A stretch of 64,000 bases of DNA. Origin: Tetradesmus obliquus (lineage: Eukaryota; Chlorophyta; Chlorophyceae; Sphaeropleales; Scenedesmaceae). The notes under the pieces were generated by a model, which saw nothing but the letters and a program-made list of their open reading frames with translations, searched no databases and had not been told where the DNA came from. The position numbers and the translations under genes were made by a program. Shown here piece after piece: positions 1-59,606 of the stretch; within the stretch, counting starts at the first letter, position 1; each line of letters begins with the position of its first letter. The stretch lies in assembly GCA_030272155.1 (NCBI GenBank), contig CP126203.1, forward strand, positions 3,100,001 to 3,164,000, in the 5' to 3' direction.

Positions 1-217
1 CCGTCTCAACAACACCAATGCGCTTATGGCAGGGCTGTGGCCAAGCCTGTCTGAGGCAATCAGCCAGCAGCTGGTGCTCACTGCTGCTGCTGCTGCTGCT
101 GGTGCTGGTGCTGCTGCTGCTGCTGCCGTCCCGCAGACTATGATCGCCTCAACAACACCAACGCGCTTATGGCAGGGCTGTGGCCAAGCCTCTCCGAGGC
201 AGTCAGCCAGCAGCTGG
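1..217 (+). repeat. Two head echoes of the exon at 332
   Basis: Two copies of the head of the 332-510 exon (LNNTNALMAGLWPSLSEA) precede it. One runs from the left edge to about 83, the other about 139-217. The second keeps a cag acceptor. Both break off after SQQLV into CTG-rich intron sequence, whereas the copy at 332 reads on through the whole SMP segment. Confidence 0.8.
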
Positions 218-885
218 TGATCACTGCTGCTGCTGCCCCTGCCATGGTTTCGCACGTGCGGTCCTAAGCATAACTACTACCTTCTGAGCAACACCAACAC
301 AGAACCACTGCTGATGCTACCCGTCTTGCAGATTACGATCGCCTCAACAACACCAATGCGCTTATGGCAGGGCTGTGGCCAAGCCTCTCCGAGGCAGTCA
401 GCCAGCAGCTGGTGCAGGCCATGGCGCCCGGCCTGATGCAGCAGGCTGCTAAGGACTACGGTGCTGGCTACCTGACTGACCTCAAGCTGGTGCAGTTTGA
501 ACTGGGGGAGGTGCGAGGCTGGTGCTGCTCTGCTTCACTGTGTTGATTGTGACCGGTTCTAAGTGTGGTTGCGCATGTGCATGGTGTTAATGTTTGTAAA
601 AGTTTGCACAACAGCACACAGCGCTGCCTGTGTGTACAAGCAGCAGCAGCTGGTGCAGGCCATGGCGCCTGGCCTGATGCAGCAGGCTGCTAAGGACTAT
701 GGTGCTGGCTACCTGACTGACCTGAAGCTGGTGCAGTTTGAACTGGGGGAGGTGCGAGGATGGCGCTTTGCTGCTTGTGCCTGGCGCTTCGCCGTCGCTG
801 CTACGACTGCTGCGGCTGCTGTGCCAAGTGCAGACATCACAAGGGCTTGATGGCTTGAATGTGTAGCATCATCTTGCGTTTCTTC

Positions 886-917
<32 letters not shown>

Positions 918-3835
918 GCCATATGCAGATTGCGCCGCGGCTGGATGGCATGAAGGTGTACGATCAAATAAGCGATGAGCAGCTGATGCTGGAGGTGGCG
1001 GCGAGCTGGGGCAGCAGCAGCAAGGTGAGGATGCAATTACTTTGGCTGTGCTGCATGACAGTAATGTGTTGATGAGTTGGCAGGGGCAGCAGCACTGGCA
1101 GCTGATGCTGCAGGTAGCGGTGAGCTGGGGCAGCAGCAGCACGGTGAGGGCGCATTTCTGTGTCTCTCACCACCTAGTAGTAGTAGCAGCTGCAGCAACA
1201 GCTGTGGTGAGGTTGAGGGTTGTGGTGGGCAGCTGATGCTGGGGGTGGCGGCGAGCTGGGGCAGCAGCAGCAAGGTGAGGATCTAACTGTGCTGCCTGAC
1301 ACTACTCCAGCTGTGCTGCTCAAAACTATTGTGGTGATGGGCTGGAAGGTGCAGCAGTCTTAGCAGCTGATGCTACAGGTGGTGGCGAGCTGGGGCAGCA
1401 GCAGCGGGGTGAGGGCTCAATTGGTTGATGTCGATGGTGTAATGATGGGCTGTCATGTGCAGCAGCTTTGGTGGGGGCATAGGATGATGGTGGTGGGGAT
1501 GCATGTTACAGCTGCAACGCTGAGTGGAGGTTAGGCTTGCAACGTTGATCATCATGCTGCTACTGCTGCTGCTGCCGATTCTGAACAGGTCGCCGTTGCT
1601 GCCACGCTGCAGCTGTTCGGGCACACGTTCTCCATCCCCCCCACCATTATGCAGCTACAGTATTTGTGGGTGCTTCATTGTTTGTGCTGCCACCATTGCC
1701 AATGCTGCCGCTGCAATAACACCATCCTTGCTGCTGCTGCTGCTGTTGCTGCTGCCTCGCAACAGGTCTCCATTGGCGCCACGCTGCAGCTGTTTGGCCA
1801 CACCTTCAGCATCCCTCTCACCGTTGAGAAGCTGCAAGTCCACGCCATCGCACGCATCAGCGCGCAGCCGCTGCTGCCGCACTATCCTTACGTCGGCAGC
1901 GTGGGAGTGAGCCTGCTGGAGCCTCCCCACATTGATTTTGAGCTGCCGCTTGGTGGGGTGGATGTGATGGCGCTGCCGATGCTGCGGGGGGCGGTGCGGC
2001 TGGCCACAAAACTACTGTCGCGGCAGTATGTTGTCTTCCCCAAGTGAGGTTTTGCAGCCTGCTTGACTTCCTTGCTCGAATTTGCGTTTGTTTCTACTTT
2101 GGATAGTGCAATTCTGGGAGTCAAGTTTGCATGAACCTGCTTGAGCCTCCTCACATCAACTTTGAGCTGCCGCTTGGCGGCGTTGATGTGATGGCGCTGC
2201 CGATGCTGCGGGGGGCGGTGCGGCTGGCCACAAAACTGCTGTCAAGGCAGTATGTGGTGTTCCCCAAGTGAGACCACTTGACAGAACTGCTGGCCTTTCT
2301 TGCTGTTGCTGTACAATGATGGGGAAATTGTTTTGCATGAGTTTCAGTGGATTCAGGCTGCTTGAGCCTCCTCACATCGTCTTTGAGCTGCCGCTTGGTG
2401 GGGTGGATGTGATGGCGCTGCCGATGCTGCGGGGGGCGGTGTGGCTGGCCACAAAACTGCTGTTAAGACAGTATATGGTGTTCCCCAAGTGAGATTGCTC
2501 AACCTGCTGGGCTGTCTTGCTGTTGAGTTTGCGTTGGATTTTGCTTGGGGCAGTGGTCTGCTGGGACTCCAGTGACAGTATGCTTGTTGGAGCCGCCTTA
2601 CATCCGCTTTATTTTTGCGGTTGGTGCGCTGGGATGTGATGGCGCTGCCAATGCTGCCCGGGGCGGTGCGGCTGGCCACAAAACTGCTGTCACGGCAATA
2701 TGTCGCATTCCAAAAGAGAGACAAAGTGTGGATTCACAACAAACATGCCAGGTTTGCACCGTGGAGTGTGCATTGTTTGTTACAAAGGGTTGTGGATTGC
2801 TTGGACTCCAACTGGGCTAGCTGCCCTGTTGATGTGGCTACTTGCACTGCTGCTGCTGCCACCACTACTGCTGTTGCTGCCGCAGGGGCATCCAGGTGCC
2901 TATGGTGCCCGCTGGGGCTGCAGCAGGGGGCCCTTGCGGCATGCTGGAGGTGGGCCTGGTCCGCCTGTCTGGCCTGCGCAGCGAAGATCTGGTTGGTCAC
3001 AGTGACCCCTACGTCATCTTCAGGGTAGGTTCAGTGTTTCGTAGTAATATACGTTATTTTCCAGGGTGGGTTCAGGGTGTTATGTTCAAGGTGAAGGCCT
3101 TTGTGACATCTGTTGTGTGATTCGGCAATTGATAAACACTTCAGGTACAAGGTGCGCACTGCTTTGCCTGGCTGTACTTCAACACAGCAGCCAAGATATC
3201 GATTGTGCTGAGCACAAAGTCATCTGTATGTATTTTGTCTTGCCTGCTCGCATGTTCAAATCGTGTCTGCTCAGCTGCTCATACTATGAGCAGCAAGCAT
3301 AGTATGCTTGCTTGCCTAACTGACTCAATGCCTGCCTGCTTGTTTCACTGCCTGCCTGCCTGCCTGCATGCATGCCTGCCCGCCTTGCGATGTGTTTTGC
3401 CGTGCAGCTGCGTGAGGGGCGCGAGGTGCGCTCCCGCACCGTGAACAACAACAACAGCCCCGAATTCAACCAGAACTTCAGGATGCTGGTGGAGGACGTG
3501 GACTCACAGGTAGGGTGATGCTGCCAGCTCATAGTGACACACTAGTGACACTCTAGTTACACACTAGTTACACTCCAGGCCTGATTTCAACCAGAACTTC
3601 AGGATGCTGGTGGAGGACGTGGACTCACAGGTAGGTTGCTGCTGCCAGCTCATACTGACACACTAGTTACACTAGTTTCACAGGGGCCACGCAAGTTATC
3701 ACTTCATGCCAATCACACTAGTACCAAAGGCTGCAGCAGATTGCTTTTTTCAAGATAGTCACACATATTTTACACAAGGGCTGCAGCCCCAAGTCTAACC
3801 AGAATTGCGTGTACGTGCGTCACCTGTTTCTGCTG

Positions 3836-3874
<39 letters not shown>

Positions 3875-6402
3875 AGGTGTTGCAGATCATTGTGATGGAT
3901 GCGGACCTGGTCAGCTTCCAAGACAAGGTCATTGGGGTGGCGCAGATACCCCTCAAGACAGTGAGTTGTTGTAGATTCTTGTTTATTGTTGTGGCGTTGG
4001 TTGAAATATGAGTGCAATAACAGTTGATCTGCCTGGCATATCACCAGGTTCACAAACGAGTGCATGCAATCCCTTTTTTCAGCTTGCTGTTCTGGCCAGC
4101 CAGCTACTATTTCAAACAAGTAGCACAGCAGCTTTCCAGCAGTGGTCAGCTTCCAGGACAAGGTCATCGGAGTGGCACAGGTGCCCCTCAAGACGGTGAG
4201 CGGCACAGACATGTCCGAAATGTGTGCGTTCTCTTTATAACTTCTCAAGACAGCGAGCAGTGCACACCATTGTGTGTGATACAAATTACCTGTACAAGCA
4301 CGCCCCCCTGCCCGTCGCATGAGGCTCTGCCTGCATTGCAATGCCGCGCAAGTGCGTGACTCCTTCACTTACCAACCATCAGCTCACGGCTCTGCCAGCA
4401 ATGATACTTGATTTACAGCTCACCACAAATAGCTTTGCGGGCAAGCAGCCTGTGTGGCAACGCCACGCACGCGCGCGCCACTGCTACTCCCCATCCACCA
4501 GCTCATGGCACCACAGAAGTCCTTGGCACTCATCTACACTGCTGCACTGCCGCATGATGCCCTACCTGCAGGCTGCATGCACTGCGATGCTGCGCACACG
4601 CGTGCCCCTGTCCCTCTCCATCAACAAGCTCATGGCCCCACAGCCGGCGGCGTCGCTCAACCAATTTGCTGCACTGCTGGCTGTTGCCCTGCCCACAGGC
4701 TGCATGCACTGCAATGCCGCGCACGCGCGTTCCTCTCTCCCTGAACGTCAACAAGCTCATGACGCTTGGCAGTCATTGATAATAACCCACACTGCTTACC
4801 ACCGCATGCATTCTCTGTAGGCTGCATGCACGGCAATGCCGCGCACGCGCGTGCCTCTCTCCCTGAACATCAACAAGCTCATGGCCCCTCAGCAGGGCCT
4901 TGGGGGGATCCTGGAGCTGCCAATCCGTGTGGCAGGCCTGCCCCTAACAGCAGCAGCAACCGGCGGCCGCTTGATCTACCAGAACATTGCTGGGGCGCTG
5001 GGTGTGGCTGGCAAGGGTTCAGGGTCAAAGGGCGGTTCGAAAGATGACCGTTATGACGAGGTTTTGGACGAGACTGGGTGGTTAGGGCCTAGCGAGGAGT
5101 ATTGGGAAGAGCGGGGGGAGTATGGGAGGGACGCAGCAGCAAAAGGGATGGCAGATGATGAGGGCGAAGGCAGCAGCAGCAGCAGCAGCAGCAATGCTGA
5201 TGGTGGTGCTGCTGCTGCGGTTGATGCTAGCACTGCTGTGCTGGTGCCTTCCTCAGACCCTGCTGTAGCTGCTGCACGAGCAGCAGCAAGCAGCAGCAGC
5301 AGCAGCAGCAGTCCGTTTGACCAGGGGCAGGTGCTGAAGGTGACAGTGCCAGCAGGCAGCGCTGCTGCTGCTGCTGCCAGGCACAGCAGCAGCAGCAGCA
5401 GCAGCAGGCATGTGCATGCCAGGAGGCCCAGTGATGATGCTGCGCCTCGTAGTGACAAAGCAGGGGCAGGCCTCAGCAGGCTTGCCAGCCAGAGTGCCCC
5501 ATTAACCGGCTTCCCTGAACCCTCCCCAGCTGGCAATGCAGCTGGCAATGCACCTGGCAATGCAGGCGGCAGGCAGGACCCCGCTGCTGGTGTATCTGCA
5601 GGCCACGCAGAGCTAGCAGCAGCAGCAGAGCCGCACCACACCCCTGAGGTGCGAGGGCCCCCTCCCGGCCCTGGCAAGCCTGCGATTGGCACGCAGCAGC
5701 AGGAGCAGCAGCAGCAGCAGCAGCAGCAGAAAGAGAAGGAGGCCAAGGATCAGGAGCAGAAGGAGGTGCTGCAGTCGATGCAGGGCACTGTTGCCGGCAG
5801 GGATGCAAAGGACCTGGGAGGCACGCAGATCAAGCCCATCCGCAGGTGGGTGCTTTGGTTTATGAGGGTATTTTTTCATGACTAATTATGGTAATCGTTG
5901 GTGATTGATAAATCGTAATTATGTGGCGTACTGCACATCTTTTAGTAACTTGTGAGGCTGCTGGGGTTGGCTGCAGCTGCAATGCCAGCTGTGTTTCATG
6001 TGCATGTGTTGCTGGTTTGCTGCAGCGTGCGCAGGCACACACTGTGTTGTGGAACATGAGTTATGGTTGCCGGAGAAGCCCTCTCATCTGCCTACCTGCA
6101 TGTCCACCCTGCCTGACTGTTGATCCACATCACATTCTTGGTCTGAGACAAAGCGTTCACCCTAGTGTGGCTTGTACCTGAGATCGTGCCAGGACCCGCA
6201 TGTAACATATCCCTCTCTACTTGTAGGGGCACGGCATTCCTGGAGCTGACCTACTCCTTTCAAGAAACACACCTGCGTGCTCACGATGCCTGCCTGCCTG
6301 TCCCTCCATGTGCATTTTCATACATGTTTGATCTCCCGCAGGGGCACGGCGTTCCTAGAGTTGACCTACACTCCCTTCAGAATGCCTACCTGCTTGTTCA
6401 TG

Positions 6403-6474: not shown

Positions 6475-7284
6475 TGATCAACGTTGCAGGGGCACTGCGT
6501 TCCTGGAGCTGACCTACACTCCCTTCAGGAGGCCCGAAGTGCAGCCCTCAGGCGCGGGAGCCAGCCCCGCTGCATCGCTGCTAGCGATAGGCCTGGGCAG
6601 GCCCAAGCCAACTGACTTGGTGAGTGGCATTACAAAATATGTAGTGTTGAAATCCAACAGCTGAGCTGCATCATGGGATATAGTGCAAATCTTAGGCGCT
6701 GGCGCTGGCGCCGGCCCTGCTGCTGGCAATAGTCCGGGGCGGGCGCAAGCGAATCGGCATGGTGAGTTAGTCACACACCTGGTCATGTTGAAGCTGCGTG
6801 GCCAGGTCGCACATCTGGCCAGGTCACACATCTGGCCTAGTCACACATCTGGCCTAGTCACACACCTGGCCTAGTCACACACCTGGCCAATTGGCATGGT
6901 GAGTTAGTCGCACACCTGGTCATGTTGAAGGTGCCTGGTGGGCTGCAATGCAGCCCTCAGGCGCGGCAGCAAGCCCTGCTGCCTCTGCAGGTGACAGGCC
7001 TGGGCAGGCCCCAGCCAACCGACATGGTGAGTGTTCTCACAACAGACATTGGGCAGATGCCAGATTGTCAGCAGCTGCAGGTACAAGGCAGGGAAGTGTG
7101 CGCCGGCAGCATCTGCCATTTCCCTGCCTTTGCATGCACATATCAAAGCTCCATCAGCTTGCCAAGTAATGCCGGCACTGCTGCTGCTGTTGCTTGCAGG
7201 GCATCCTGGCTGTGACTGTGGTGCGCACCAGGGGCCTCACCGGCTGGCAACATGAGGCTGACCCCTAAGTCACACCCTTGCTAA

Positions 7285-7325: not shown

Positions 7326-8541
7326 GCAGGGCATTCTGGCTGTGACTGTGGTGCGCGCCAGGGGCCTCACCGGCTGGCAACATGAGGCTGACCCCTACGT
7401 CACACTCACTCTCATGGAGACTGCTGAGGAAGCCAGCAGCAGCAGCGGCGGCGGCAGCAGCACTACTGCAGGTGCATCTGCGCGGCTGAGCACGCTTGAG
7501 GAGCAACGCAGCAAGACTGTGTACAACGAGGAGAGCCCAAGGTACGCCTGCTATCGCTGCTTGACAGTTTATGCGTCATGCGAAGCTGTCTGCTTGCTAG
7601 TCAGTAAAAAGTTTGATAAAACCATGGTTCCTGCGGGCATCCTTCCATCTCTTGTTGTCACTTGCTTTGCTTGGATGGCTGCAGTTCAAATGTGTGATAC
7701 GTTTGGCTTCATCATGGTTCCTGCAAGTGCCTTTTTATTGTTGTTGTAACCCATGCTGCCTGCCTGGCTGCAGTTCAATTGATATGTTCCAAATGATACG
7801 TTTGAATTCATGGTTCCTGCAAGCACCTTTCAACTCTTGTTGTCACCCATGCTGCCTGCCTGGTTGCAGGTTCACTGAGAAGTTTGACTTCATCATGGTT
7901 CCTGCAAGCAGCGCTCTCAACCCTTTTGTTTTCACGCCATGCTGCCTGCCTGGGTGCAGGTTCAACGAGAAGTTTGACTTCATCATGGTTCCTGCAAGCC
8001 CCTGTCAACTCTTGTTGCCAACCCTGCTGCCTGCCTGGCTGCAGGTTCAATGAGAAGTTTGACTTCATCATGGTTCCTGCAAGCAGCGTGCTGCTGGTCA
8101 CTGTGTGGGACCAGACCACTGTGGTGGAGGCAGTGGTCAGCCTCAGCTTGTCGAGGGTGAGTGCTGCACCAGTATTTCAGGACAATAAGAACCATTTAGA
8201 TGGTGCCAGGACCTGCATGTAGCTGCTGCCCTTTCCCAATCATGATGTAAGTGATGACAGCAGTAGATGAGAACATAACTTTACTGCTGTGTTGCATGGA
8301 ATGCAGACAAGTGAATGGTGCCACACATGCGTCGTCGCAATGCAACAATATCTCTGCAGCTATGTTCAAAAGACACCTCAGCAGCTGTCCCGTGTTTGTG
8401 CACTATCAGGCTGCTGCTGGGCAGTGCATCTAAAAATAGCTGTAATAGCGCAGCAATTATGTGACGGGGTTCTGAATGGGGTTTATTTACACTTGCGTCT
8501 CAGCTGCCTCTGGTGTTTCACAGCCGCACCCAACCTCCCCA

Positions 8542-8605: not shown

Positions 8606-8766
8606 TGCAGGAGCGCTTCCGCGACCAGGTGCTGGGTCGCGTGAAGGTGCCAGTAGTGGACGTGGCTGCTGCGGGCCGTGTGCGCTCCAGCTGGCCGCTG
8701 CAGGGCGCCATGATGGGCGAGCTAGAAATGATCTTGCAGTGGATCCCGCAGCACCTCGTGGACTGA
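1..8766 (+). CDS. Extended-synaptotagmin-like SMP/C2-domain lipid-transfer protein (5' end outside window)
   Basis: Inferred role: moving glycerolipids between membranes at ER contact sites, as known for E-Syt/tricalbin/SYT proteins. Exons read: 332-510, 929-1024, 1766-2043, 2886-3024, 3408-3509, 3877-3960, 4821-5845, 6490-6619, 7330-7541, 8045-8156, 8611-8766. All junction phases agree and give 836 residues ending in TGA. The first three exons encode the second half of an SMP domain (FELGE then APRLDGMKVYD; closing VVFPK-GIQVPM). A first C2 domain follows (GHSDPYVIF, NSPEFNQNF, MDADLVSFQDKVIG), then a linker of about 250 residues rich in Ser, Ala and Gln, and a second C2 domain (GILAVTVVRARGL, EADPYVTL, FNEKFDF). 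The N-terminal membrane anchor expected in this family must lie left of the window. The apparent stop after VVFPK at 2045 is intronic (AA|GTGAGG). Almost every intron carries exon echoes. Confidence 0.85.
641..751 (+). repeat. Tail echo of exon 332-510
   Basis: A near-identical copy of the last ~110 bases of the exon (QAMAPGLMQQAA to FELGE), followed by the same gtgcgagg donor. It lies 130 bases downstream of the real exon and lacks the exon's head. Confidence 0.85.
1085..1420 (+). repeat. Three tail echoes of exon 929-1024
   Basis: Three copies of the exon's last ~45 bases (QLMLEVAASWGSSS plus gtgagg donor), near 1096-1142, 1229-1274 and 1364-1416. The reading frame is progressively degraded (LQVAVSWG, LGVAASWG, LQVVASWG). 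Confidence 0.75.
1587..1650 (+). repeat. Head echo of exon 1766-2043
   Basis: After a gaacag acceptor comes a diverged copy of the exon start (AATLQLFGHTFSIPPT). It ends before the EKLQVHA part present in the real exon. Confidence 0.75.
2139..2715 (+). repeat. Three tail echoes of exon 1766-2043
   Basis: Copies at about 2139-2271, 2357-2491 and 2583-2715 repeat the exon tail (LLEPPHI to RQYVVFPK). The first two keep the AAgtgag donor. The third has lost it (ccaaaagagag) and is the most diverged, so decay increases with distance from the real exon. Confidence 0.85.
3577..3632 (+). repeat. Tail echo of exon 3408-3509
   Basis: Copy of FNQNFRMLVEDVDSQ with its gtagg donor, followed by the same ctgctgccagctcata intron start. 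The unit therefore spans exon and intron. A weaker trace lies at about 3787-3808. Confidence 0.8.
4141..4199 (+). repeat. Tail echo of exon 3877-3960
   Basis: Copy of VSFQDKVIGVAQVPLKT followed by gtgagc, downstream of the C2 exon. Confidence 0.8.
4328..4762 (+). repeat. Four head echoes of exon 4821-5845
   Basis: Copies near 4330, 4448, 4570 and 4697 repeat the region that in the real exon reads MPRTRVPLSLNINKLM. They include the preceding gctgcatgcactgc acceptor context at a ~120-base period. The copy at 4821 is the only one that reads on. Confidence 0.8.
6179..6208 (+). repeat. Dispersed ~28-bp intronic motif, copy 1
   Basis: gagatcgtgccaggacccgcatgtaac; related copies lie at about 8199-8222, 27303-27331 and 35266-35295, each inside an intron of a different or distant position. 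Confidence 0.6.
6223..6386 (+). repeat. Two head echoes of exon 6490-6619
   Basis: Copies at about 6226-6272 and 6342-6386 of GTAFLELTY(TPF), each behind a tag/cag acceptor. Confidence 0.8.
6404..6473 (+). repeat. (TGCC)n microsatellite
   Basis: About 17 uninterrupted tetranucleotide units in an intron of the SMP/C2 gene, just upstream of the 6490 acceptor. Confidence 0.95.
6690..7030 (+). repeat. Tail echoes of exon 6490-6619, with a 17-bp tandem repeat
   Basis: Diverged copies of the exon tail (GASPAAS..GLGRPKPTDL plus gtgagt) lie at about 6693-6770, 6885-6906 and 6951-7030. Between them, about 6807-6890, a 17-bp unit (tcacacatctggcctag) is repeated five times. Confidence 0.7.
7192..7270 (+). 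repeat. Head echo of exon 7330-7541 with a stop codon
   Basis: Near-identical copy of GILAVTVVRARGLTGWQHEADP behind cttgcag. The tyrosine codon after DP is TAA here (TAC in the real exon), so use of this acceptor would truncate the second C2 domain. Confidence 0.85.
7612..8044 (+). repeat. Five head echoes of exon 8045-8156
   Basis: Five units of about 90 bases contain versions of FNEKFDFIMVPAS, most behind a cctgcctgg..tgcag acceptor. The two nearest the real exon (from about 7870 and 7961) are almost identical to it. The farther ones are frameshifted and have lost gt/ag context. Confidence 0.85.
8199..8222 (+). repeat. Dispersed intronic motif, copy 2
   Basis: agatggtgccaggacctgcatgtag in the last intron of the SMP/C2 gene; 21 of ~25 positions agree with copy 1. 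Confidence 0.6.
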
Positions 8767-8799: not shown

Positions 8800-9340
8800 G
8801 TATCAGATGGCAGCTGGCGGCTGCAGGGAGCGATGATGGGGGAGCTGGAGATGATCCTGCAGTGGATCCCGCAGCACCTTGTGGAGTAAGGTTGGAACGC
8901 TGTGGTATTTTGAAGTTTTGTTATGTATCAGATGGCTGCTGGCCGCTGCAGGGACCTATGATGGGTGAGCTGGAGAGGATTTTGCAGTGGATCCCGCAGC
9001 ACCTTGTGGAGTAACTGGCCGTTGTGTTTGATGACAGGTGACAGCTGGCCCTGCAGGGCACCATGATGGGCGAGCTGGAGATGATCCTGCTGTGTACCTT
9101 GCGGCGGCGGCATAGTAGTAGGCCGATGCACTGTGTTGTATAACAGATGGCAGCTGGCCGCTTCAGGGAGCCACGTTGGGCGAGCTGGAGATGATCCTGC
9201 TGTGGATCCCGCAACGGCTGGCGGAGTGAGGCCGATATACTATGTTGTATCACAGGTGACGGTTGGCAGCTGCTGCAGGGGATCAGGGTGAGGTGACTAG
9301 AGATGATCCTGCAGTGGTTACCGCAGCGGTTGGTGGAATG
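8800..9340 (+). repeat. Five terminal-exon echoes after the stop codon of the SMP/C2 gene
   Basis: Starting about 8810, 8935, 9040, 9148 and 9255 are copies of the last coding stretch (WPLQGAMMGELEMILQWIPQHLVD) with its stop region, at a ~110-base period. They would lie in the 3' UTR or 3' flank. Confidence 0.85.
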
Positions 9341-9376: not shown

Positions 9377-9965
9377 CACTTGTTCAACTCGCTTGTCGCC
9401 CCCATCTTGGGCTACTGCTCAGAGGTGTGGGGGCCCTCTCTGCTTAACGTGTGGCAGTGGGTCACCTGGAGTTGCAAAGGCCCTCAGCAATGACATGCAT
9501 GTGGTGCAGATGATATTGTTACGGCTGCTGGCTGGCCGTGTGCGCAAGTCCACCTGTAGGCAGCTCCTACTGCGTGAGTTTGGCTGCAGGCCTTTGGTCA
9601 GTGGCTGGTACACAACATGCTGGGATTTGTGGAAAAGAGTGGTTGCCCGTCCTCCAAATGACTGGCTCTATCTTGCCATGCAGGAGAACAGATATCTTAG
9701 CTTGAGAGAGTTTTCTGGCAGCGCAGAGCAGAGCCGGCAGAAGGCCCTGTGGTTTTGGCAGTTTCGTGCGTTTGTGTGTGCTCTGCATACACACACGGGT
9801 ACTCTGGGTGGAGTTTTGCAGTCGCTGGATGGCCTTGGCAGGTTGGAGGATGCGGATAAGGGCAAGCCCCAGGCTGCCTTTCAAGCCTGGCTGTATCAGC
9901 AGTGGCAGAACCTGCCCTGCAACCCAAGGCAGGCTGGCTCGGACACAGTTGTTTGTTCTACATGA
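9377..9965 (+). mobile_element. Non-LTR retrotransposon reverse-transcriptase C-terminal fragment, frameshifted
   Basis: HLFNSLVAPILGYCSEVWGP, read from 9377, resembles the end of the palm/thumb region of LINE-type reverse transcriptases (LF..LV.P.L.Y..E.WG). The frame then shifts near 9475-9490 and continues as MHVVQMILLRLLAGRVRKS and CWDLWKRVVARPPNDWLY up to a stop at 9963. No RT catalytic YxDD, endonuclease or poly(A) tail is seen here, so this is a dead 3' fragment. It abuts the last exon echo of the upstream gene. Family assignment is by motif only. Confidence 0.65.
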
Positions 9966-49489: not shown

Positions 49490-49607
49490 TTACACCATGT
49501 CGACCGCCGGCACGTCAGGCATGTCGTCCAGCTCCTCCATCAGCTCCAGCTCCTCAAGCCGCTCCTCAATCGCCTCCTGTGACAGCAGCAGCAGCAGCAG
49601 CGACAGC

Positions 49608-49644
<37 letters not shown>

Positions 49645-49658
49645 GCGGCAGCAACAGA

Positions 49659-49691
<33 letters not shown>

Positions 49692-52410
49692 AGCAGCAGC
49701 AGCAGCAGTAGTAGATGAGCAAGCTGTTGATACCCAATGATTCTGGCGGGAAAGCCTGAAACAGCAGCAGCTGAGCTCGGCAGCAGCGACAAGTGCGAAC
49801 ACTGCGGCTGTGTGGACAAGCTGGCAGTTACTTTGCCACACAGCAGCTGGGCAGCAAGGCGCTTGCAAATAGCCTACATGCAGGTGCCACTGTATGTAAC
49901 CCCGCCGCCATCGCAATAATAAACAAGCAAGTGGTTGTCAGCAATTGTAAACAAGCAAGTGGTTCTCAGCGACCCAGGCAGCGGTACGTAGAGAGCCTTA
50001 GACGAACGTGAAGTCCTTAACAAGGACGCGTTGATGCTATGGCTGGATGGGTAACATAATGATGTAACCCCGCCGCCATCGCACCTGCTGTGCAGCCTCG
50101 TCAGCAGCAGCCAGCGCTGGCAGCGCCTCCTGCTCGCCCTCGAGCAGCCCAGGCTCGGGCCACAGGCCCATGCGCACATAATCCCTGCATTCAATCGCAG
50201 CACCACCATGTGTGTGAACAATTGAAGCAACGTGATCATTGTTGGTAAGGCAGCCCAGGCTCGGGCCACAGGCCCATGCGCGCGTAGTCCCTGCAGGTAC
50301 CGCAACACAGCATGTTAGCATACCCAGCTTGACATATTCTTTGATAACTAGCTACTTATGGCTGCCTATAGGCAGCCCAGGCTCGGGCCACAGCCCCAGG
50401 GGCACGTAGTCCCTGCAAATACCACAATAAAGCATGTTAGGAGGAAAAGCTCAAGATATTGTTTGACAAGGCAGCCCAAGCTCGGGCCACAGGCCCATGC
50501 GCATGTAGTCCCTGCAAGTAGAAGCCGCAAAAACACTATGTTATTCGTGGATACATCATAGGTACATGCCAATACATTGGCAAGTCGGCAACACATGAAC
50601 CCGTGTTGAAAGGGTGCATGCGCACGACGGCAACGACACAGCGCAGCACAAGACATTCCAAAACAGCATAACAACAAAGTTGCCGGCTGGCTGCACCTGG
50701 TGTTGCACTGCTTGTCAGGCTTGGTGCACTGCTCCTCGCAGTATCAGGCTTGGTGCACTGCTCCTCGCAGTATCAGGCTTGGTGCACTGCTCCTCGCAGT
50801 ATCAGCACACTAGGCTCACAGATCAAGGCACCTAGCAAAAATCCAATAACACCAGCCGCACCGTATGTTGAACTGCTTGTCTGGGTCGGTGTACTGCTCC
50901 TGGGGGTGACCCGCAAAGCACTCAGCCACCAGCGCCATGCCTGGCACGCTACCGAGGCAATATACACAAAGCACAAGGCGCCAGTACAGCGAAACCAATG
51001 CACCAGCCGCACCGTATGTTACGCTGCTGGTTTATGGTGGCGCACTGCTCCTGAGGATATTAACACACTATACAAACGAAAAAATGTATGTTGTGTAGCC
51101 GCACCGTATGTTGAACTGCTTGTCTGGGTCGGTGTACTGCTCCTCGGGGTGACCCGCAAAGCCCTCAGCCACCAGCGCCATGCCCGGCACTGCAGCAGCA
51201 TCCTCAATGAAGATGCCATCCTCCCTGCAGGCCGGAAACACAGCACACACAAATTGCATTGAGAGGGTGTGAACATAGCAATGCGCCGCAGCATCTTCAA
51301 TGAAGGTGCCGTCCTCCCTGCAAGCAGACAGCATAGCAGATGACTGGTGTCCCATATACAATGGCCAAGCACAACCTCGAATCTGCCACCAGCGCCATGC
51401 CAAGCGCGGCCGCAGCATCCTCGATGAAGTTGCCGTCCTCCCTGCACACAAACAAAGCACTCGATCAGTAACTCTTGTGCGTAATCCTGCACAAAGTCAA
51501 GCCAGCCACCAGCGCCATGGCCGGCACGTGCACAGCATCATCACCCGGCCTTCCTGCAGGCCGGAAATGCAGCGCACCACTGTCTATCATGTATGTTTCC
51601 AATGGCCAACTTAGAGTGACTCAGCCACTGTGACGGAACCGCTGATAGGCAATGCTATTAGGTGGGATTTCGCCCATATAAGCCACGAGGGTGACCACTC
51701 CCGTTACAGCCACCAGTGCCATGCCCGGCACGTGCGCGGCGCCCTCGATGAAGGCCTCAACATGCTGAGTAGGCAAGCAGAGCCATGAGTATTAAAATGG
51801 ATAGAGGGGTTACATGGTGTGTTCATGCGGCATACACCGCCACAGACACCTGGTAAATGTAGGAAGATGCAAGCAGCCATACGTATACGTGTGCTGAATG
51901 CCCCACCTGATGCGCAGCACGGGGTCGACATGGTTCTCGCCCAGCGTTGTCACGCTGTGCCGCACAAAGCTGCGCTCGAGACAGTCGAAGCTGTACACCT
52001 GGCTCATGTCCACCTGGTACGGCTCCATGCTGCTCACACCCACAAAGTACATGCGCATCAGCTGCAGCAGCAGCAGCAGCAGCAGCGGCAGCAGCAGCAG
52101 CAGCAGCAGGGGAGCACCGGCAGCGCAGCAGCAGCAGCAGCAGCGCGAATGTCAGCAGGCATGTGACAGTAAGGTTGGCAGGTACATGCCAACAGAAGGA
52201 CCTGGCTGAGGTGCTTGCAGCTGCTTAAAAGTGCTGCTGCTGCTGTCAAGCTGCAGCCTCACAAGCATGCTGGCATTGCTACGATTGCCAGCAGCAGCAG
52301 GAGCAGCAGCAGCCTCACCGTCACTTTTGGGTCGATGCGCTTGAGTGTGTCACCCGTCTTAGTGTGCTCCCACGGCAGCAGCTGAAACAGCCGCGGCTCA
52401 CGCGGCACCT

Positions 52411-52447
<37 letters not shown>

Positions 52448-55400
52448 GCAAGCACATCAGCAGTGCATCTCAAGCACACAAGACCTTGTGCCATGCATTG
52501 CCCATGTACGTCGTGTGCTGCCGCAGCCCACTCCGTTGCTGACGTCTGGCCCACTCGATGCTGCATGCTCTTCTGCCGCGTTTCAGCAACCGCAGTGCAT
52601 TGTACATGGCACAAGGCTGCAGCCAAACAAAACAAAACCACTGCTGTGTTTCTTTATGATGGGGCTCACCTCATCCCTGAGGCCGATCTGCCACAAACAT
52701 CTCAGCTCAGATCTGCTTTGAAACCAGCAACACCTCGTGACCTGCTGACTGTCGCTGCCGCACTTCAGTCATTGCAGTGCAACGCATTCTGCCAAGAACA
52801 CCTCAGCTCAGCTCTATCATGAAAGGCGGCTCACCTCGTCGCTGATTGCAGGTCTGCTGAAGAGCTCGTCAAAGGTTGACAGCACAAAGCAGTCAGCCAG
52901 CACCATGCGGCCATCAGGCAGCTCGTTCACCAGCAGCTCCATGCCATCCTGCAAAAGCACATCAGCATACGGCCCCCACTTGTGAACTTTGCATTTTGAA
53001 ATGAATTTGAGTTCTGACTTTTAGATACTAGGTAAGTGGCAGGCACCATCCTTCCAATCAGGCAACTCATTCACCAGCAGCTTCATGCCGTCCTGCAAGG
53101 GCGCAGCATAATAAGGATAGGGCTGTCATGTTTTGCACTAAGAAATGAATGTTCATGTGTGCATTTAGAAGCCTAGATGATGGGCAGGCACCAGCCGTCA
53201 GGCAGCTCGTTGACCAAAAGCTGAGCTACTCTCCAGCTCCCTACACCCTAACAACCCTGAACCCACACACCATGGGGAACACCGTGTAGCTCTGCCTGTT
53301 GTGTGCTAGTGCCTCCCTGTGAGCAGCTGCAACAAAATAAGCCGCAATGTTTTAACAAATAAACATATGACAGTTTATTTAATTAAGATGTTTACTTAGG
53401 AAATAGAAAATAAAAACAATTCACAGCCTCACACGCACTGCCTGCTCACAACCTCAAATAGCAAGCCACACAACCCCCAGCAGCGCACCATGGGGAACAC
53501 CGCGTAGCCCTGCCTGTTGCGTGCCAGTGCCTCCTTGTCTGCAGGTGCCAGCTGCACGGTCTGCTCGTCAAAGGTCTTCGGCCGCCACTGCTCAGGCACA
53601 GGTGCTGGCACGACTTCAAGCGTTGGCGCATCCTCGTCATCCGCTGCTGCCTCCTCAAAGCGAACCTGCACACCACAAACCCACAACACGCATGTGGAGA
53701 AAGTTGGCTTAAAGTGTGCTAAGCAGGGCTGCACTTGGCGCATCCTCGTCATCCGCTGCTGCCTCCTCAAAGCGAGCCTGTATGCATGCAGCAGCAGAAC
53801 AAACGCAGCTAGCTAGTGAGTTGTAACCTAAGTGTCGAGCACTGCGTCTATCAATAGAAACAAGGACAGCTGCGGCTGCACTGCACGTAACTATAGAGCA
53901 TACACTAAGCCAGCATGACATGCACGCAGCTGCACCCATCCTGCAGGCAGCCTCATGCATCAGCCATCAGGCCACGCAGCTGCACCCATCCTGCAGGCAG
54001 CCTCATGCATCAGCCATCAGGCCACGCAGCTGCACCCATCCTGCAGGCAGCCTCATGCATCAGCCATCAGGCCACGCAGCTGCACCCATCCTGCAGGCAG
54101 CCTCATGCATCAGCCATCAGGCCACGCAGCTGCACCCATCCTGCAGGCAGCCTCATGCATCAGCCATCAGGCCACGCAGCTGCACCCATCCTGCAGGCAG
54201 CCTCATGCATCAGCCATCAGGCCACGCAGCTGCACCCATCCTGCAGGCAGCCTCATGCATCAGCCATCAGGCCACGCAGCTGCACCCATCCTGCAGGCAG
54301 CCTCATGCATCAGCCATCAGGCCACGCAGCTGCACCCATCCTGCAGGCAGCCTCATGCATCAGCCATCAGGCCACGCAGCTGCACCCATCCTGCAGGCAG
54401 CCTCATGCATCAGCCATCAGGCCACGCAGCTGCACCCATCCTGCAGGCAGCCTCATGCATCGGCCATCAGGCCACGCAGCTGCACCCATCCTGCAGGCAG
54501 CCTCATGCATCAGCCATCAGGCCACGCAGCTGCACCCATCCTGCAGGCAGCCTCATGCATCAGCCATCAGGCCACGCAGCTGCACCCATCATGAAGGCAG
54601 CCACATGCATCAGCCATCAGGCCACAGCAAGACCTGCCATGAAAAAATCTGCCACGAGAAAGAAACAATCTGCGCACCATGGCTCGCGCTGCTGCTGCCT
54701 CCCGCTCCTCCTTTGTTGGCACAGCCGGCGCCGCAGCATCCTGCGCGGTGTCAAAGTTTGACAGCGCAGCATCCCAGCCCTCCAGCTCTGCATCAGCACC
54801 TGCGGCAAGCAGGCGTAAAAGAAGGTGCGAATTGATGCTCAGCGAGGTGATGCGGCACGCCGGCAAATGACAGCGCAGCATCCCAGCCCTCTAGTTCTGC
54901 ATCAGCACCTGCAAAAGCATGCGTACAAAAATGTTTGACGTGATGTTCAGCAGAGTTGATGTGGCATGCCGGCCTCTGCCAGCGCAGCATCCCAGCCCCC
55001 CAGCTCTGCATCAGCACCTGCGGCAAGCAGGCGTAAAAGAAGGTGCGAATTGATGCTCAGCAAGGTGATGTGGCATGCCGGCCAATGCCAGCACAGCACC
55101 CCAGCCCCCCAGCTCTGCATCAACACCTGCAGAAAGCAGGCGTAAAAGGTTGAATTTGATGCTCAGCAAGGTGATGTAGCATGCCGGCCAATGACAGCGC
55201 AGCATCCGAGCCCTCTAGTTCTGCATCAGCACCTGCGGAAGCAGGCGTGAAAGAAGGTTTGAATTGATGTTCAGCAGAGTTGATGTGGCATGCCGGCAAA
55301 TGACAGTGCTGCATCCCAGCCCTTCAGCTCTGCATCAACACCTGCGGAACAGCAGGCGTAAAATAATGTTTGAATTGATGTTCAGCAAGGTGATGCGGCA

Positions 55401-56141
55401 CGCCGGGAAATGACAGCGCAGCATCCCAGCCCTCCAGCTCTGCATCAGCACCTGCGGAACAGCAGGCGTAAAATAATGTTTATATTGATGTTCAGCAAGG
55501 TGATGCGGCACGCCGGGAATTGACAGCGCAGCATCCCAGCCCTCCAGCTCTGCATCAGCACCTGCGACAGAAAGGCTTTGGATTTAGAAGTGCAGGCGGC
55601 GGTTTTGTGAAGTTGAGGTGGCAAGCCGTGCTATCGATGAAGCAGGTTGTCAGCAGCAGGCAAAATCCGAATACGCAACAGCAGCATCTTCATCACATTA
55701 TGGACGGTTGCGTCAGCACCACGCAGCTCACCCTCTGCCTCTGCTGCTTTGTCCTCATCTTCATCATCATCACAGCAGCAGCAGCAGCAGCAGCAGCATC
55801 ACAGCAGCAGCAGCAACCCCATACAGCTCACCCTCTGCCTCTGCTGCTTCATCCTCATCTTCATCCCCAAATTCATAGTCCTCCTCGCCAAACTCCTCAG
55901 CGTCATCTGCAAGCAGCCATGCCAGTGGATTACGCACACAACAAGTCAGTGAGCAGGCAAGCAAGCAGCAGGCTAGCTGACAGATTACGATATTAGCTTC
56001 TTAGACCTGCGCTGGTCCCTCCACGCAGCATAAGCAGCCAGCAGCACCAGGCAATGCACGCATGCATGCCACAGGGGTTGCTGGAGTAGAACATGCAGGT
56101 GGGCAAACGACGAGCACATCCAGCAATAGGTACAGCACGAT

Positions 56142-56188
<47 letters not shown>

Positions 56189-56843
56189 GCACCGCACCTA
56201 GGTACGTGATGCGGCGTGGGCTGTCGTCAAGGCCCATGGCCCCTGCCGCCTCTCCTCCATCCTCCTCGGCCTCCTCTACATCCTGCGGATGGGCAGAAAC
56301 AGAAGTGACAGTGTCATAACAGAAGTGACAACTCTGTAACAAGCAATTACGGCATGTGCTGTGGCCCCTGCTGCCTCTCCTCCATCCTCCTCAGCCTCCT
56401 CCACATCCTGCGGATGGCAATCACGATTGCTGTTTCAAGGTAATTGGGTAGCAGGTTTGCTGCACACGTTTGTGCTGCCCGCTGTGCCGTCGTATCTTGC
56501 GCTGGCCGCTGCGCCATCGTATCGCGCCCGTGCTGATCATCCCCACGAGTGCTGGCTACGTGCCTTGGCTCACAACTCGATTTAGAACACACATCTAGAT
56601 ATACAGTTGTACCTGTAACATGTCCTGCTGAGACCATGTGAGCAACTGCTTAGTAACAACACCAACCAATAAACACCGGACAACTGCTTCACGCTTCTGC
56701 CAAAACAGTCACCTGCATGCCCTCGCCCGCATCGTCCTCTGTGTCATACATCACGCCATCCATGTCCTGCTGAGACCATGTGTGCAATTGCCTAGTAACA
56801 ACACCAACCAATAAACACCGGACAACTGCTTCAAGCTTCTGCC

Positions 56844-56915
<72 letters not shown>

Positions 56916-57677
56916 CCAGTCACCTGCATGCCCTCCTCCCCCTCATCATCCTCTGTACCGTACATAACATCGTCCATGTCTAGCTGCGGCTCATCTTCAG
57001 GGTTGGGCTGCTGCTGCTTTCTAGGCCGGCCTGGCAGAAACAACACATCAGCAAGAGGTACGAAAGACATCAACAGCAGCATGAGGGACAACAAGGTGTG
57101 CTTGGCTGGCGCAAGCGAATGAGCATGCATGACAGTCCAATGCGCCGACAGCGACTGCTGTCGGCCCTGGTGCGGCAAGTTTACAGCCTCAGTAAACTGT
57201 GTATGCCACAGCTGCTGCGGTGGACAAACAGCTGCTTGAGCAAAGACTGCCGTAGCAGGGTTGTAACAGCACGCAACAGGTGCACCAAGTGCAGTTGCTG
57301 CAAATAGGCACTGCAGCTGGGAATCACCTGCAGGAGCATTGCAAGCTGCTGTCGCGGCTGCCCCTGCAGCTGATGCTGGGGCTGTGCCAGCAATAGTACT
57401 GCAGCTGCTGCTAGACATTGGCCATGCAACTACACTATTCAGCCAGCTCACCTGCTGCTGTTATTACGCCTGCTCGTCTCCGCAGCAGCCCTTGCTGCTG
57501 ATGCAAACCCAGCAGTGGCACCGCTGTAAGCTGTGACACTGCTGCTGCTGCTGCTCTATATCTAATTGTGCTAACTTGTGCTGCTGTGTGTATCTGGGAG
57601 TGCCTGCAGGCTACTCGTTGCAAGCTTGACGGTCTGAGGCAGTGGCCCACGGTACTGCTGCTGCTCAAGGCTGCCAT
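49490..57677 (-). CDS. Plastid-targeted acidic protein of unrecognised family
   Basis: I do not recognise this family. Exons in coding order: 57677-57452, 57030-56924, 56282-56198, 55906-55832, 54799-54678, 53665-53489, 52948-52835, 52408-52319, 52061-51907, 51224-51105, 50184-50085, 49576-49490; 485 residues, all phases agree. Residues 1-76 look like an algal chloroplast transit peptide: Ser/Arg/Ala-rich, no acids, ending RRRAGVITAAG. Next is a strongly acidic region of about 90 residues (DMDDVMYGTEDDEGEE, EEFGEEDYEFGDEDEDE). A globular part follows with NELPDGRMVLADCFVLSTFDE, LLPWEHTKTGDTLKRIDP, MRMYFVGVSSMEPYQVD and HSVTTLGENHVDPVLRIRED, and the C-terminal helix is Glu/Leu-rich (EAIEERLEELELMEELDD). 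A nucleoid or RNA-polymerase-associated role would suit such composition but is only a guess. Introns hold more than 20 exon echoes and a 14-copy minisatellite. Confidence 0.75.
50248..50515 (-). repeat. Three head echoes of exon 50184-50085
   Basis: Copies at about 50515-50468, 50415-50368 and 50297-50250 of DYVRMGLWPEPGL behind cag acceptors. In all three the copy stops exactly after the GL codons. Confidence 0.9.
50716..51060 (-). repeat. Tail echoes of exon 51224-51105, including a 29-bp triplication
   Basis: About 50951-50862 is a long copy (GMALVAECFAGHPQEQYTDPDKQFNIR) with gtgcgg donor. 51060-51000 is a diverged copy. At 50722-50808 a 29-base piece (gtgcactgctcctcgcagta..) derived from the same tail is itself repeated three times. 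Confidence 0.8.
51283..51768 (-). repeat. Four head echoes of exon 51224-51105
   Basis: Copies at about 51765-51708, 51556-51503, 51443-51383 and 51320-51283 repeat EDGIFIEDAAAVPGMALVA with variants, the last two behind a gcag acceptor. Decay increases with distance from the real exon. Confidence 0.85.
52665..52750 (-). repeat. Tail echo of exon 52948-52835
   Basis: Degraded copy of the exon end (SRPAISDE plus gtgagc) downstream on the minus strand. Confidence 0.55.
53040..53335 (-). repeat. Head echoes of exon 52948-52835 and tail echo of exon 53665-53489
   Basis: 53105-53046 and 53225-53182 repeat DGMELLVNELPDG. 53330-53262 repeats the preceding exon's tail (ALARNRQGYAVFPM). Tail copies lie next to the upstream exon and head copies next to the downstream exon, within one intron. 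Confidence 0.75.
53735..53782 (-). repeat. Head echo of exon 53665-53489
   Basis: Copy of RFEEAAADDEDAP behind tgcatacag, upstream of the real acceptor. Confidence 0.85.
53923..54622. repeat. 50-bp x 14 minisatellite in an intron
   Basis: Fourteen head-to-tail 50-base units (cacgcagctgcacccatcct..) that are identical except for one A-to-G change near 54462 and several changes in the last unit. Since 50 is not a multiple of three and no frame of the unit has a stop, all three plus-strand frames stay open for >220 codons. These ORFs are an artefact of the repeat. It lies in the intron between plastid-protein exons 54799-54678 and 53665-53489. Confidence 0.97.
54890..55565 (-). repeat. Seven head echoes of exon 54799-54678
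   Basis: Seven units of ~109 bases carry the acceptor and first ~45 coding bases (GADAELEGWDAALS), with ctgcatcagcacctgc at 54898, 55006, 55117, 55220, 55331, 55440 and 55550. After ALS each reads into the shared intron sequence, whereas the real exon continues NFDTAQDAA. Confidence 0.95.
55720..55785 (-). repeat. Tail echo of exon 55906-55832
   Basis: Copy of the acidic tail (DEDEDKAAEAEG) with the gtgagct donor, 100 bases downstream of the real exon end. Confidence 0.85.
56355..56412 (-). repeat. Head echo of exon 56282-56198
   Basis: Copy of DVEEAEEDGGEAAGA behind catccgcag, upstream of the real acceptor. Confidence 0.9.
56626..56846 (-). repeat. Tail echo of exon 57030-56924 inside a ~138-bp tandem duplication
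   Basis: 56765-56701 repeats MDDVMYDTEDDAGEGMQ and its gtgact donor. The adjoining intron sequence (gtaacaacaccaaccaataaac) is present at both 56654 and 56796, so the unit again covers exon plus intron. Confidence 0.9.
56846..56911. repeat. (AAT)n microsatellite
   Basis: About 22 AAT/TAA units immediately downstream of the plastid-protein exon 57030-56924 on the minus strand. This is the only long AT-rich trinucleotide tract in a window dominated by CTG/CAG. Confidence 0.95.
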
Positions 57678-58072
57678 GGCTGCCGCTGCTCTGCTAGCTC
57701 CCGTGACCTTACAAAACCGTCATATTTGATGCTGATACAGGTATAGTGCTTTGATATCCGTGTGTGGCTGAGCCAAATTTGCGGGTGGTCCGAGTTGTGT
57801 GCGGCACTTTCGGTATGAACCCTGCTGACAGAGGTCGACGAGTTGTTAGAGACACGCTGCACCGATCGAAGTTGTTTGTTTGAAACCAGTGCTGCTGACC
57901 TGGCTGTTGTTCAAAGGGCTTTATAACAAGTGCCCCTTTGCTTCGAAACAAGAACGTTGCAAGCGCCGTGATCACGCTCGTTGCGCGTTCAATTACATCG
58001 AGCATTAGTCTTACCTTCGCATCAGTCGCAGTCTTCGTCACTCAGGCCTTCACGTAAGCAGCAGTTGGCAGT
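57678..58072. promoter_or_regulatory. Divergent promoter region between plastid-protein (-) and PSMD9 (+) genes
   Basis: Only ~395 bases separate the two start codons, so promoters and 5' UTRs must share it. The sequence lacks CTG tracts and contains mixed palindromic-looking motifs but no recognisable TATA box. Confidence 0.6.
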
Positions 58073-59606
58073 ATGGACGCACTCAAAGCAGAGCTGAAAC
58101 AGCTGCAGGCGCAGCGGTCAGCCATTGAAGCAGAAATCAAGGAGCGCTCGGACTGTTTGAATGATCCTGGCCAGCCTGGCATGAATGGTAGCTTACTGGA
58201 CAAGGAGGTACGCATCAGCACAGCAGGACCACCATGCACAGTGGTGTGGCATGACTGGAATACGTCGAGCTTCATGAACATGGAAAGAGCAACACGCAGC
58301 AACAATTAGCAAGCATGCAGCGTGGTAATTGGCATGATTCACAAGGCCAAAAGGCTGCAGTGCTGGCCTGCGCCATGTACTGCCATCTTTTGTTGCACTG
58401 CTGCACGTGCCTTGGAGCAGCACACACCTGATGCTTCGCCTCCAAAACATTGAGCCTCCCTGCCTGCATTTGTTACCCCTTACTCAGTCGCGAAAAGCTC
58501 AGCACTTCCAACTCCTTCAACTGTATGGTTCTGTCCTGCAGGGCTTCCCTCGATCAGACATCGACATCCACGCCGTGCGCAGCGACCGCAACGCCGTCAT
58601 CCGGCTGGCCAACGACCACAAGCAGCTCAGCAGCAGGCTGGAGCAGCTGCTGCACAAGATGCATGCGCTGGCACGGTGGGCGGGTGGGGTGGGGGTGCCA
58701 CACTGCATGTGCGGCAGACGTGCTGAGCTGGCAAGGTAGTTTGGTGCGGGCAGCTGGAGCAACCGCTGCACAAAGTGCATGCGCTGGCGAGGCAGGTGGG
58801 TGGGTGGGTGGCTGTCGTCAACGCATGTTCTTATGTGTTGGTCGGCTGGTCGATGACCATAAGCAGCTCAGCAGCAGGCTGCAGCAGCTGCTGCACAAGA
58901 TGCACGTACTGGCACGGTGAGTGTACCAGCAGAAGAGCCACGCTGCATGTGCAGAAGTTGTGTTACGCTGGCAGGGTAGTTTGGTGGTGGGCAGCTGCTG
59001 CACCAAGTGCATGCGCTGGCGAGGTGAGTGTACCAGCAGAAGAGACACTGCAAGATGTGTTAAGCTAGCAGGTTGGTTTGATGGCGGGCAGCTGCTGCAC
59101 CAAGTGCATGCGCTGGCGAGGTGAGTGTACTAGCAGAAGAGACACTGCAAGATGTGTTAAGCTGGCAGGTTGGTTTAAATGGCGGGCAGCTGCTGCACAC
59201 ATTGCATGCGCTGGCGAGGTGCGGGACTCCCCACCATGGTTGGCAGAATCGGTGGTCACAATGCATATAGTTGTCACGTCATGTGGTCGACTGGCAAGCT
59301 GGAAGTAGGTCCCCTATGCATGAACATCATACAGTGCGGTGGGCAGCAGGCGAGAGCACCACTGGCAGCAGCTGCACATCAGCAGGCGGCTGCCAGTGCA
59401 CTTTGGTGGACCTGTCACTGCTCTGTTACTGTGTATCCATGCGTTGTGTGGTGGTGGTGCCTGCAGGGAAACAGGAGCAGTCGCTGCTGCAGGCAACAGC
59501 CAGCCAGCAGGCAACGGCGCAGCAGCAGCAGCAGCAGCACCTGCAGCTGCAGCCAGCACATCAGCAGTCCAGCAGCAGGATACAAAGATGCCGCAAGCTT
59601 CGGAAA

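Follow-up and report, generated by a model that had tools for sequence, protein, structure and literature searches.

Exon edges in the green alga Tetradesmus obliquus are repeated as partial copies in the introns that adjoin them, and the placement of these copies follows a simple rule: copies of an exon's start lie upstream of it, and copies of its end lie downstream. We characterized this pattern in 64,000 nucleotides of chromosome DNA (GenBank assembly GCA_030272155.1, contig CP126203.1, positions 3,100,001 to 3,164,000), hereafter called the window; the host contig is 5,023,913 bp long, and the genome comprises 104.66 Mb in 17 contigs. When each exon of three curated genes was searched against its own flanks, 70 partial copies, which we refer to as echoes, were found, either within the neighboring introns or immediately beyond the stop codon. 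The expected edge (the exon start for upstream copies and the exon end for downstream copies) was reached within 12 bp by 67 of them, and the three exceptions fell 13, 18, and 22 bp short. The rule was seen on both strands, with copies on the plus strand in the SMP/C2 and J-domain genes and on the minus strand in a plastid-type gene. Collectively, these data confirm an earlier reading of the window (the original prediction), according to which exon heads and tails recur in neighboring introns under a strict rule that is independent of strand; its estimate of about 60 copies, counted by eye, was too low, as the three curated genes alone hold 70.

Partial copies at coding edges

Because echoes mislead gene finders, the exons of the SMP, J, and plastid-type genes were placed mainly by the proteins of relatives (P0001 and P0020 from Scenedesmus sp. 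NREL 46B-D3 and P0008 from EukProt), using tblastn and then a spliced fit for the junctions. Two SMP edges (the start of exon 1 and the end of exon 9) were placed manually, following the ab initio model, and three upstream J exons are approximate. In the tblastn results, full exon matches were flanked by partial ones, which corresponded to exon starts upstream or exon ends downstream.

Self-comparison of the window, with simple repeats masked, gave 135 local direct matches versus 3 inverted rows (one palindrome and one pair appearing twice). CAG/CTG triplet runs are abundant throughout the window and were the source of most local inverted matches before masking. At least one copy accompanied 13 of 21 exon edges in the SMP gene, 10 of 15 in the J gene, and 10 of 23 in the plastid-type gene, and copies made up 22% of the intron bases in these genes (3,922 of 17,858, spacers excluded). 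Exon edges were enriched: 32 of the 36 duplication families in the three genes held an exon member, compared to the ~41% expected for uniformly placed 125-bp units with echoes removed from the introns. In a genome-wide search with J exon 7, copies were found only beside exon 7 among the matches listed. Divergence, which had been noted often to grow with distance from the exon, did so in 10 of the 16 arrays of at least two copies but not in the others.

The original prediction took the copied edges to be splice sites. However, coding ends are also copied past the stop codons of the last SMP and J exons (8811-9327 and 47223-47601), where no splice site is involved, and the edge is thus the end of the coding sequence. 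Duplication families with an exon member were likewise present in the SSL, carbonic anhydrase (CA), PSMD9, and EEP genes, whose exons, like those of the random blocks described below, come from a self-trained ab initio gene model; the number of genes with echoes is therefore seven, at least seven having been proposed. The masked self-comparison revealed no duplication family in the ketoacyl synthase (KCS) and SDR genes. When the window was tested with ab initio exons throughout, 33 of 46 copies obeyed the rule, while 5 were reversed, 7 were interior, and 1 was full; these misfits are probably explained by the gene model taking echoes for exons.

The pattern reaches beyond the window. Aligning exons against their flanks in ten random 20-kb blocks of the genome (200 kb; self-trained gene model, 112 exons tested) yielded 74 copies, 65 of which followed the rule (29 upstream heads and 36 downstream tails, including one copy counted twice). 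The others were 2 upstream tails, both from one predicted exon that itself resembles a copy of another, and 7 interior copies; there were no downstream heads and no full copies. The dinucleotide AG or GT stood at the right place in 59 of the 65 rule-obeying copies. Local matches in these blocks were again mostly direct (279 versus 11 inverted). Rule-obeying copies occurred in 8 of the 10 blocks, and a ninth held interior copies only. An artifact of assembly or polishing, to which we give almost no credence, is contradicted by this spread, by the substitutions that distinguish copies from one another, and by two spacers that are unique in the genome.

Five echo-bearing gene models in the random blocks contain Pfam domains (NDH2-type dehydrogenase, PHO4 transporter, Mlo, 2-isopropylmalate synthase type, and subtilase), some of these models having been merged by the ab initio model. 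When the isopropylmalate synthase model was compared with a solved structure, query positions 25 to 105 and 169 to 504 aligned, and positions 106 to 168, with repeated stretches, were left out. One 20-kb block (C11:840919-860918) carries similar gene models on opposite strands (L009 and L010), both with echoes; the Mlo domain lies in the minus-strand model of this pair, and the scan covered that model alone.

Origin and divergence of the copies

Neighboring copies lie at regular distances. Of 131 pairs, 73 were spaced by 100 to 140 bp and 19 by 220 to 260 bp, a second peak near 240 bp that looks as if one copy had been lost; 90 of the 131 spacings fell within 85 to 165 bp, with a mean of 122 bp and a standard deviation of 15 bp. 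The length of the exon part trades off against the rest of the unit (rho = -0.58), which indicates a fixed unit, since pieces inserted with independent spacers should give a value near zero. Both the direct orientation and this spacing quantum support small tandem duplication as the source of the copies. The head and tail rule is expected from any tandem duplication across a coding end and needs no further cause, and the copying of stop-codon ends implies that splicing is not required for copying. Arrays of similar period were seen more broadly. Among arrays with a period of at least 20 bp detected by Tandem Repeats Finder (TRF), coding or not, 39 of 82 had periods of 20 to 40 bp, and 24 of the 43 others had periods of 100 to 140 bp. 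Twelve window families lacked an annotated exon; two were multiples of 42- and 50-bp minisatellites, and 9 of the 10 others were spaced by 100 to 154 bp, although some of these families may hold unannotated exons; support for a 120-bp size among non-coding repeats is rather thin.

Considering all local duplications, 33 of 53 in the window lay at edges, compared to a null of 20%, and 44 of 132 (33%) did so in the random blocks, compared to a null of 13%. For young full-unit duplications, 6 of 21 were at coding edges versus ~14% expected (P = 0.11). Duplications may thus form near uniformly, with edge enrichment arising from persistence, and we would attribute the excess at edges mainly to the longer time over which coding parts remain recognizable. 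The original prediction had offered a mutation bias by duplication centered on splice junctions; duplication is supported by orientation and spacing, while centering is not needed, given the copied stop-codon ends and the young duplications. An annotation-free test for splice signals at repeat ends was uninformative, given that the acceptor core CTGCAG is a palindrome: among 279 matches, the counts were 137 on the expected side and 106 on the control side.

The explanation that we favor, with confidence somewhat above even, is that frequent tandem duplications of ~120 bp leave redundant half-exon copies in introns and that exchange among exon tracts follows. Short segments, preferentially of ~120 bp, would often be duplicated head to tail across the genome, probably whether or not they are coding. 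A unit spanning a coding end would survive only if the gene still used the copy contiguous with the exon body, and the redundant copy would become intron, as a head with its acceptor upstream, a tail with its donor downstream, or a coding tail past the stop. Since the far end of a half-exon copy would usually offer no good site, exon definition would let the spliceosome skip the copy in spite of its strong site. If exon tracts then kept exchanging, by unequal exchange and conversion, while spacers drifted, old copies would come to look like cutouts of exon edges. The geometry, orientation, spacing, sharp edge, and outer/inner difference, as well as the recurrence elsewhere in the genome, are direct observations, and the duplication mechanism, the choice by exon definition, and the exchange are deductions from them.

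Two features go beyond plain duplication, namely, a sharp fall in similarity at the coding edge, despite exon parts that are ~90% identical, and a difference between outer and inner copies in their spacers. Over 67 copies, identity averaged 0.84 to 0.90 within the exon part as far as the junction and 0.61 to 0.67 more than 10 bp into the intron, with one SMP exon 1 copy at the window start misread in this profile (one copy-exon pair and one copy-copy pair, each out of 67); the intron-side baseline from unrelated junctions was 0.48 to 0.63. A like step was found in the random blocks (0.87 to 0.94 on the exon side versus 0.51 to 0.66 on the intron side). Tandem duplication followed by decay, with no exchange, would leave one exon copy constrained and the other drifting but both spacers drifting, so that spacers lost similarity faster and only exon parts stayed visible. 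This fits the loci at which the unit is still largely or wholly preserved (3455-3682, 42251-42795, and 54758-55574) and the 32 copies, out of 66, with homology in the intron part (z > 3). By our own reckoning, however, decay would produce an exon/intron factor of at most about two, which is hard to square with the observed step, and where the exon part was at least 93% identical (26 copies), spacer homology was absent about as often (12 copies; z < 2) as it was present (13 copies; z > 3). We therefore consider decay without exchange rather unlikely.

A shared spacer was more frequent in inner copies (23 of 31) than in outermost copies (12 of 31; P = 0.0098), giving the arrangement tract-spacer-tract-spacer-tract that would be expected if arrays grew and became homogeneous through exchange between exon tracts, with the outer flank not taking part. 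The array at 54758-55574, which combines a 109-bp period with a 324-bp higher order and variants shared among copies, looks like the product of exchange turnover. Two tested spacers (44511-44629 and 53332-53485) each had a single genome match, namely, themselves, and the idea that spacers form a mobile family was rejected for these two. We infer that seed duplications were followed by exchange among exon tracts while spacers drifted. More tentatively, and with less than even confidence, exons across the genome may be a continuing source of half-exon copies deposited in their own introns, these copies exchanging with the live exon while the surrounding intron is replaced.

The sharp fall in similarity could also point to a splicing- or RNA-linked process that writes junction-cut exon pieces into the nearby intron, and the fall is seen even for the copy at 44630-44766, which is 94% identical to its exon over 137 bp and shows no spacer homology. 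This process is nevertheless very improbable in our view, as stop-codon ends are copied too, the spacing behaves as a fixed unit rather than as a piece plus an independent insert, and spacers are common to inner copies.

Several observations weigh against duplication followed by exchange. Spacing tends to increase with the length of the exon part (rho = 0.45), whose range of 29 to 92 nt is narrower than a random phase would give. Clustering of mismatches, the expected footprint of exchange, was weak (Fisher-combined P = 0.02 over 36 copies, with 4 of 36 below 0.05). In the random blocks, 88 of the 132 local duplications touch no high-confidence exon (3 wholly exonic ones excluded), and the statement that young duplications are not enriched at edges is based on 21 cases, with exon calls that are incomplete. 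In addition, differences fell at third positions in 457 of 748 cases (61%; window and random blocks, copies of one array not being independent) versus the ~50% expected for unconstrained copies, and changes private to one copy were synonymous in 59 of 131 cases versus 28% expected. The synonymous excess hints at some constraint or at copies that are snapshots of an evolving exon; both excesses would arise in part if a constrained exon had been copied at different times.

The same third-position excess would be expected if many copies were functional alternative exons or splice-regulating decoys under selection. Consistent with this, splice dinucleotides were retained in 53 of 62 window copies, a retention also seen in the random blocks, and the two copies of the last J exon differ from it almost only at third positions (0:0:5 and 0:1:6 by codon position). 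Moreover, 65 of 70 copies were free of stops and 57 of 70 lacked a frameshifting gap, and the inner starts of tail copies showed some acceptor enrichment (46% on the exon and 32% on the copy versus 17.6% by chance). The inner ends of head copies, however, showed no donor enrichment (19% on the exon and 12% on the copy versus 11.7% by chance), which makes most head copies incomplete exons; stops are present in 5 of 70 copies and frameshifting gaps in 13 of 70; and, by our own reckoning, the retention of AG and GT is near what drift of 5 to 8% would leave. Furthermore, no echo was visible in relatives in the two introns that could be read from short metagenomic proteins, by one-frame read-through. 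In these relatives, the intron between J exons 7 and 8 is roughly 340 nt (P0011 and P0015) versus 1,220 nt in T. obliquus, and that between J exons 4 and 5 is roughly 230 nt (P0016) versus 1,326 nt. Selection on many copies is thus improbable, although copies may have a weak or occasional function.

The splice sites of copies are potential competitors of the real ones. Position weight matrix (PWM) scores were 6.9 for real acceptors and 6.3 for those of copies (P = 0.065) and 5.8 for donors of either kind, and 6 of 62 copies had no site; because some echoes were among the ab initio exons used to train the matrices, this similarity in strength is partly circular. The dozens of competing splice sites envisaged originally thus exist on paper, with copy sites scoring nearly like real ones.

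Genes and copies along the window

Nine genes were modeled in the window, compared to the twelve counted originally, and two of the encoded proteins are OEZ86_009229 and OEZ86_009236 of T. obliquus. A Pfam scan identified a FAE1-type ketoacyl synthase, Exo_endo_phos (EEP), Str_synth (SSL), Carb_anhydrase, and Nas2_N plus PDZ (PSMD9-type) but assigned no Pfam family to the plastid-type protein. The SMP/C2 gene was named by the Pfam domains of its homologues, and the J-domain gene was also recognized; the labels SDR and plastid reflect the name given in the original prediction or the appearance of an open reading frame rather than a search result. Echo density is very uneven from gene to gene. 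The region from 9400 to 21500, which contains the ketoacyl synthase and SDR genes, is free of local duplication families, though the ketoacyl synthase model has several introns.

The SMP/C2 gene (332-8763, plus strand) was modeled by tblastn and a spliced fit to P0001 as 11 exons (332-510, 929-1024, 1766-2043, 2886-3024, 3408-3509, 3877-3960, 4821-5845, 6490-6619, 7330-7541, 8045-8156, and 8611-8763), and its start probably lies upstream of the window, as the homologue has residues before exon 1. Exon 1 has two head copies (2-77 and 139-219; 94.7 and 97.5% identity) and a tail copy with a donor (644-751; 97.2% over 108 bp), and exon 2 has three tail copies (1098-1405; 93 to 96%). Exon 3 has a head copy (1589-1659; 77.5%) and three tail copies (2132-2711; 87 to 90%), whose alignment shows a conserved exon part and a diverged intron part. 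Single tail copies follow exon 5 (3576-3630; 94.5%) and exon 6 (4143-4194; 88.5%), and four head copies precede exon 7 (4327-4761; 75 to 95%). Between 6227 and 7275 lie two exon 8 heads (6227-6265 and 6342-6386), an exon 8 tail (6949-7026), and an exon 9 head (7200-7275), at 86 to 96%; three exon 10 heads follow (7695-7999; 91 to 98%). Beyond the real stop are five tail copies of the last exon (8811-9327; 81 to 91%), two of which fail to reach the edge, by 13 and 22 bp.

Two public T. obliquus proteins for the SMP gene, P0002 and P0003, begin only near the end of exon 5, without the initial exons found in relatives (region 332-5845), and a stretch of exon 7 present in P0002 is missing from P0003. 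Annotation errors to which echoes contributed are a possible cause.

The J-domain gene (39783-47083, plus strand) was fitted to P0008, with exons at 42104-42298, 43625-43848, 44298-44510, 45461-45666, and 46887-47083 in addition to the three approximate ones upstream. A possible tail copy of the approximate exon 2 lies at 40830-40876 (83%). An exon 4 head (41970-42043), two exon 4 tails (42488-42541 and 42729-42785), and an exon 5 head (43346-43495) are 91 to 94% identical to their exons. Exon 6 has a head copy at 44048-44124 (88%) and the tail copy at 44630-44766 described above, and exon 7 has four head copies (44834-45398; 81 to 97%) and two tail copies (45709-45864; 87.5 and 98.2%). Exon 8 is preceded by five head copies (46259-46834; 84 to 96%) with a period of about 122 to 126 bp and, being the last exon, is followed by two tail copies past the real stop (47223-47601; 95.8 and 92.7%).

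The plastid-type gene (49493-57689, minus strand) matches OEZ86_009236 and was modeled with 12 exons. Exon 11 has three head copies (50250-50511; 88 to 93%). Exon 10 has two tails (50701-50738 and 50862-50947) and four heads (51285-51753), one of the heads 18 bp short of the edge (85 to 96.5% for the group). Further copies comprise an exon 7 head (53043-53092), an exon 6 tail (53271-53330), and an exon 6 head (53735-53775), at 86 to 100%, and an exon 4 tail (55732-55765), an exon 3 head (56362-56407), and an exon 2 tail (56713-56772), at 80 to 94%. Exon 5 has seven head copies (54868-55561; 88 to 100%), which belong to the 109-bp array with higher order discussed above. An intron of this gene also carries fourteen 50-bp units matching at 99% (53923-54625), an array that is shorter in unit and far more uniform than the echo arrays, and nine 42-bp units (92%) at 61309-61685 are tied to no modeled exon.

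Among genes with ab initio exons, the SSL gene (plus strand) has exon-edge duplication families at 26596-27732, 29179-29319, and 29447-29592 in the self-BLAST comparison. The carbonic anhydrase gene has exon head copies at 35584-35835 on the minus strand, with 60 bp at 100%; the PSMD9 gene has exon tail copies at 58602-59221 (plus strand); and the EEP gene has one head copy at 21521-21720 (plus strand).

Known systems and intron growth

Tandem exon duplication, including that of mutually exclusive exons, places repeated exon sequence with splice sites beside the original. Echoes differ from such exons in that they are partial and carry one edge each; full copies numbered 0 of 74 in the random blocks and 1 of 46 in the window ab initio set. 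Introner elements are inserted intronic sequences found at many genes, whereas the two echo spacers tested are single copy in the genome. Introns can also be gained when an AGGT segment is duplicated in tandem, a process reportedly described by Rogers and by Hellsten that is similar in leaving exon pieces inside an intron. Such an intron, however, would open with the head of the exon that follows it and close with the tail of the exon that precedes it, whereas echoes place an exon's own head before it and its own tail after it, and existing introns grow (as judged by a search for own copies only). Cis-competition between duplicated splice sites, with the choice set by exon context, is said to have been demonstrated by Reed and Maniatis in 1986 in a designed reporter; the T. 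obliquus copies are, by comparison, natural.

As for a mechanism, fill-in of 3' overhangs by Pol alpha-primase is a repair route to small tandem duplications, according to one report (PMC8355091). The duplications described there resemble echoes in being short, direct, and head to tail, with paired nicks or breaks as their proposed sites of origin; they are insertions of <100 bp in the human genome, whereas T. obliquus shows a ~120-bp quantum, arrays, and similarity largely confined to exons. We found no description of the echo pattern in the literature searched, which was open access only and makes this a weak absence; in the genome papers examined for Scenedesmaceae or Sphaeropleales, wording on introns, tandem repeats, or exons was absent or unrelated.

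Echoes have practical and biological implications. They mislead gene finders: many were taken for exons in our ab initio annotation, and OEZ86_009229 lacks the first SMP exons, which lie in an echo-rich stretch. If the sample holds, 65 copies per 200 kb extrapolate to ~30,000 copies across the 104.66-Mb genome. The mean intron of T. obliquus is 462 bp compared to 230 to 302 bp in four other green algae, and the larger genome is ascribed by the authors of that study to non-coding DNA (PMC5966456); echoes offer a concrete source of this growth of introns and non-coding DNA. They also supply matched pairs of splice sites with similar scores and different exon contexts, making the choice between real site and decoy directly testable. 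If exons do shed copies that go on exchanging with them, each such gene would hold a local library of older exon edges, mostly armed with splice sites, and the copies would amount to a natural, genome-wide experiment on how exons are distinguished from their echoes by the spliceosome, as well as one reason for the growth of introns in this alga.

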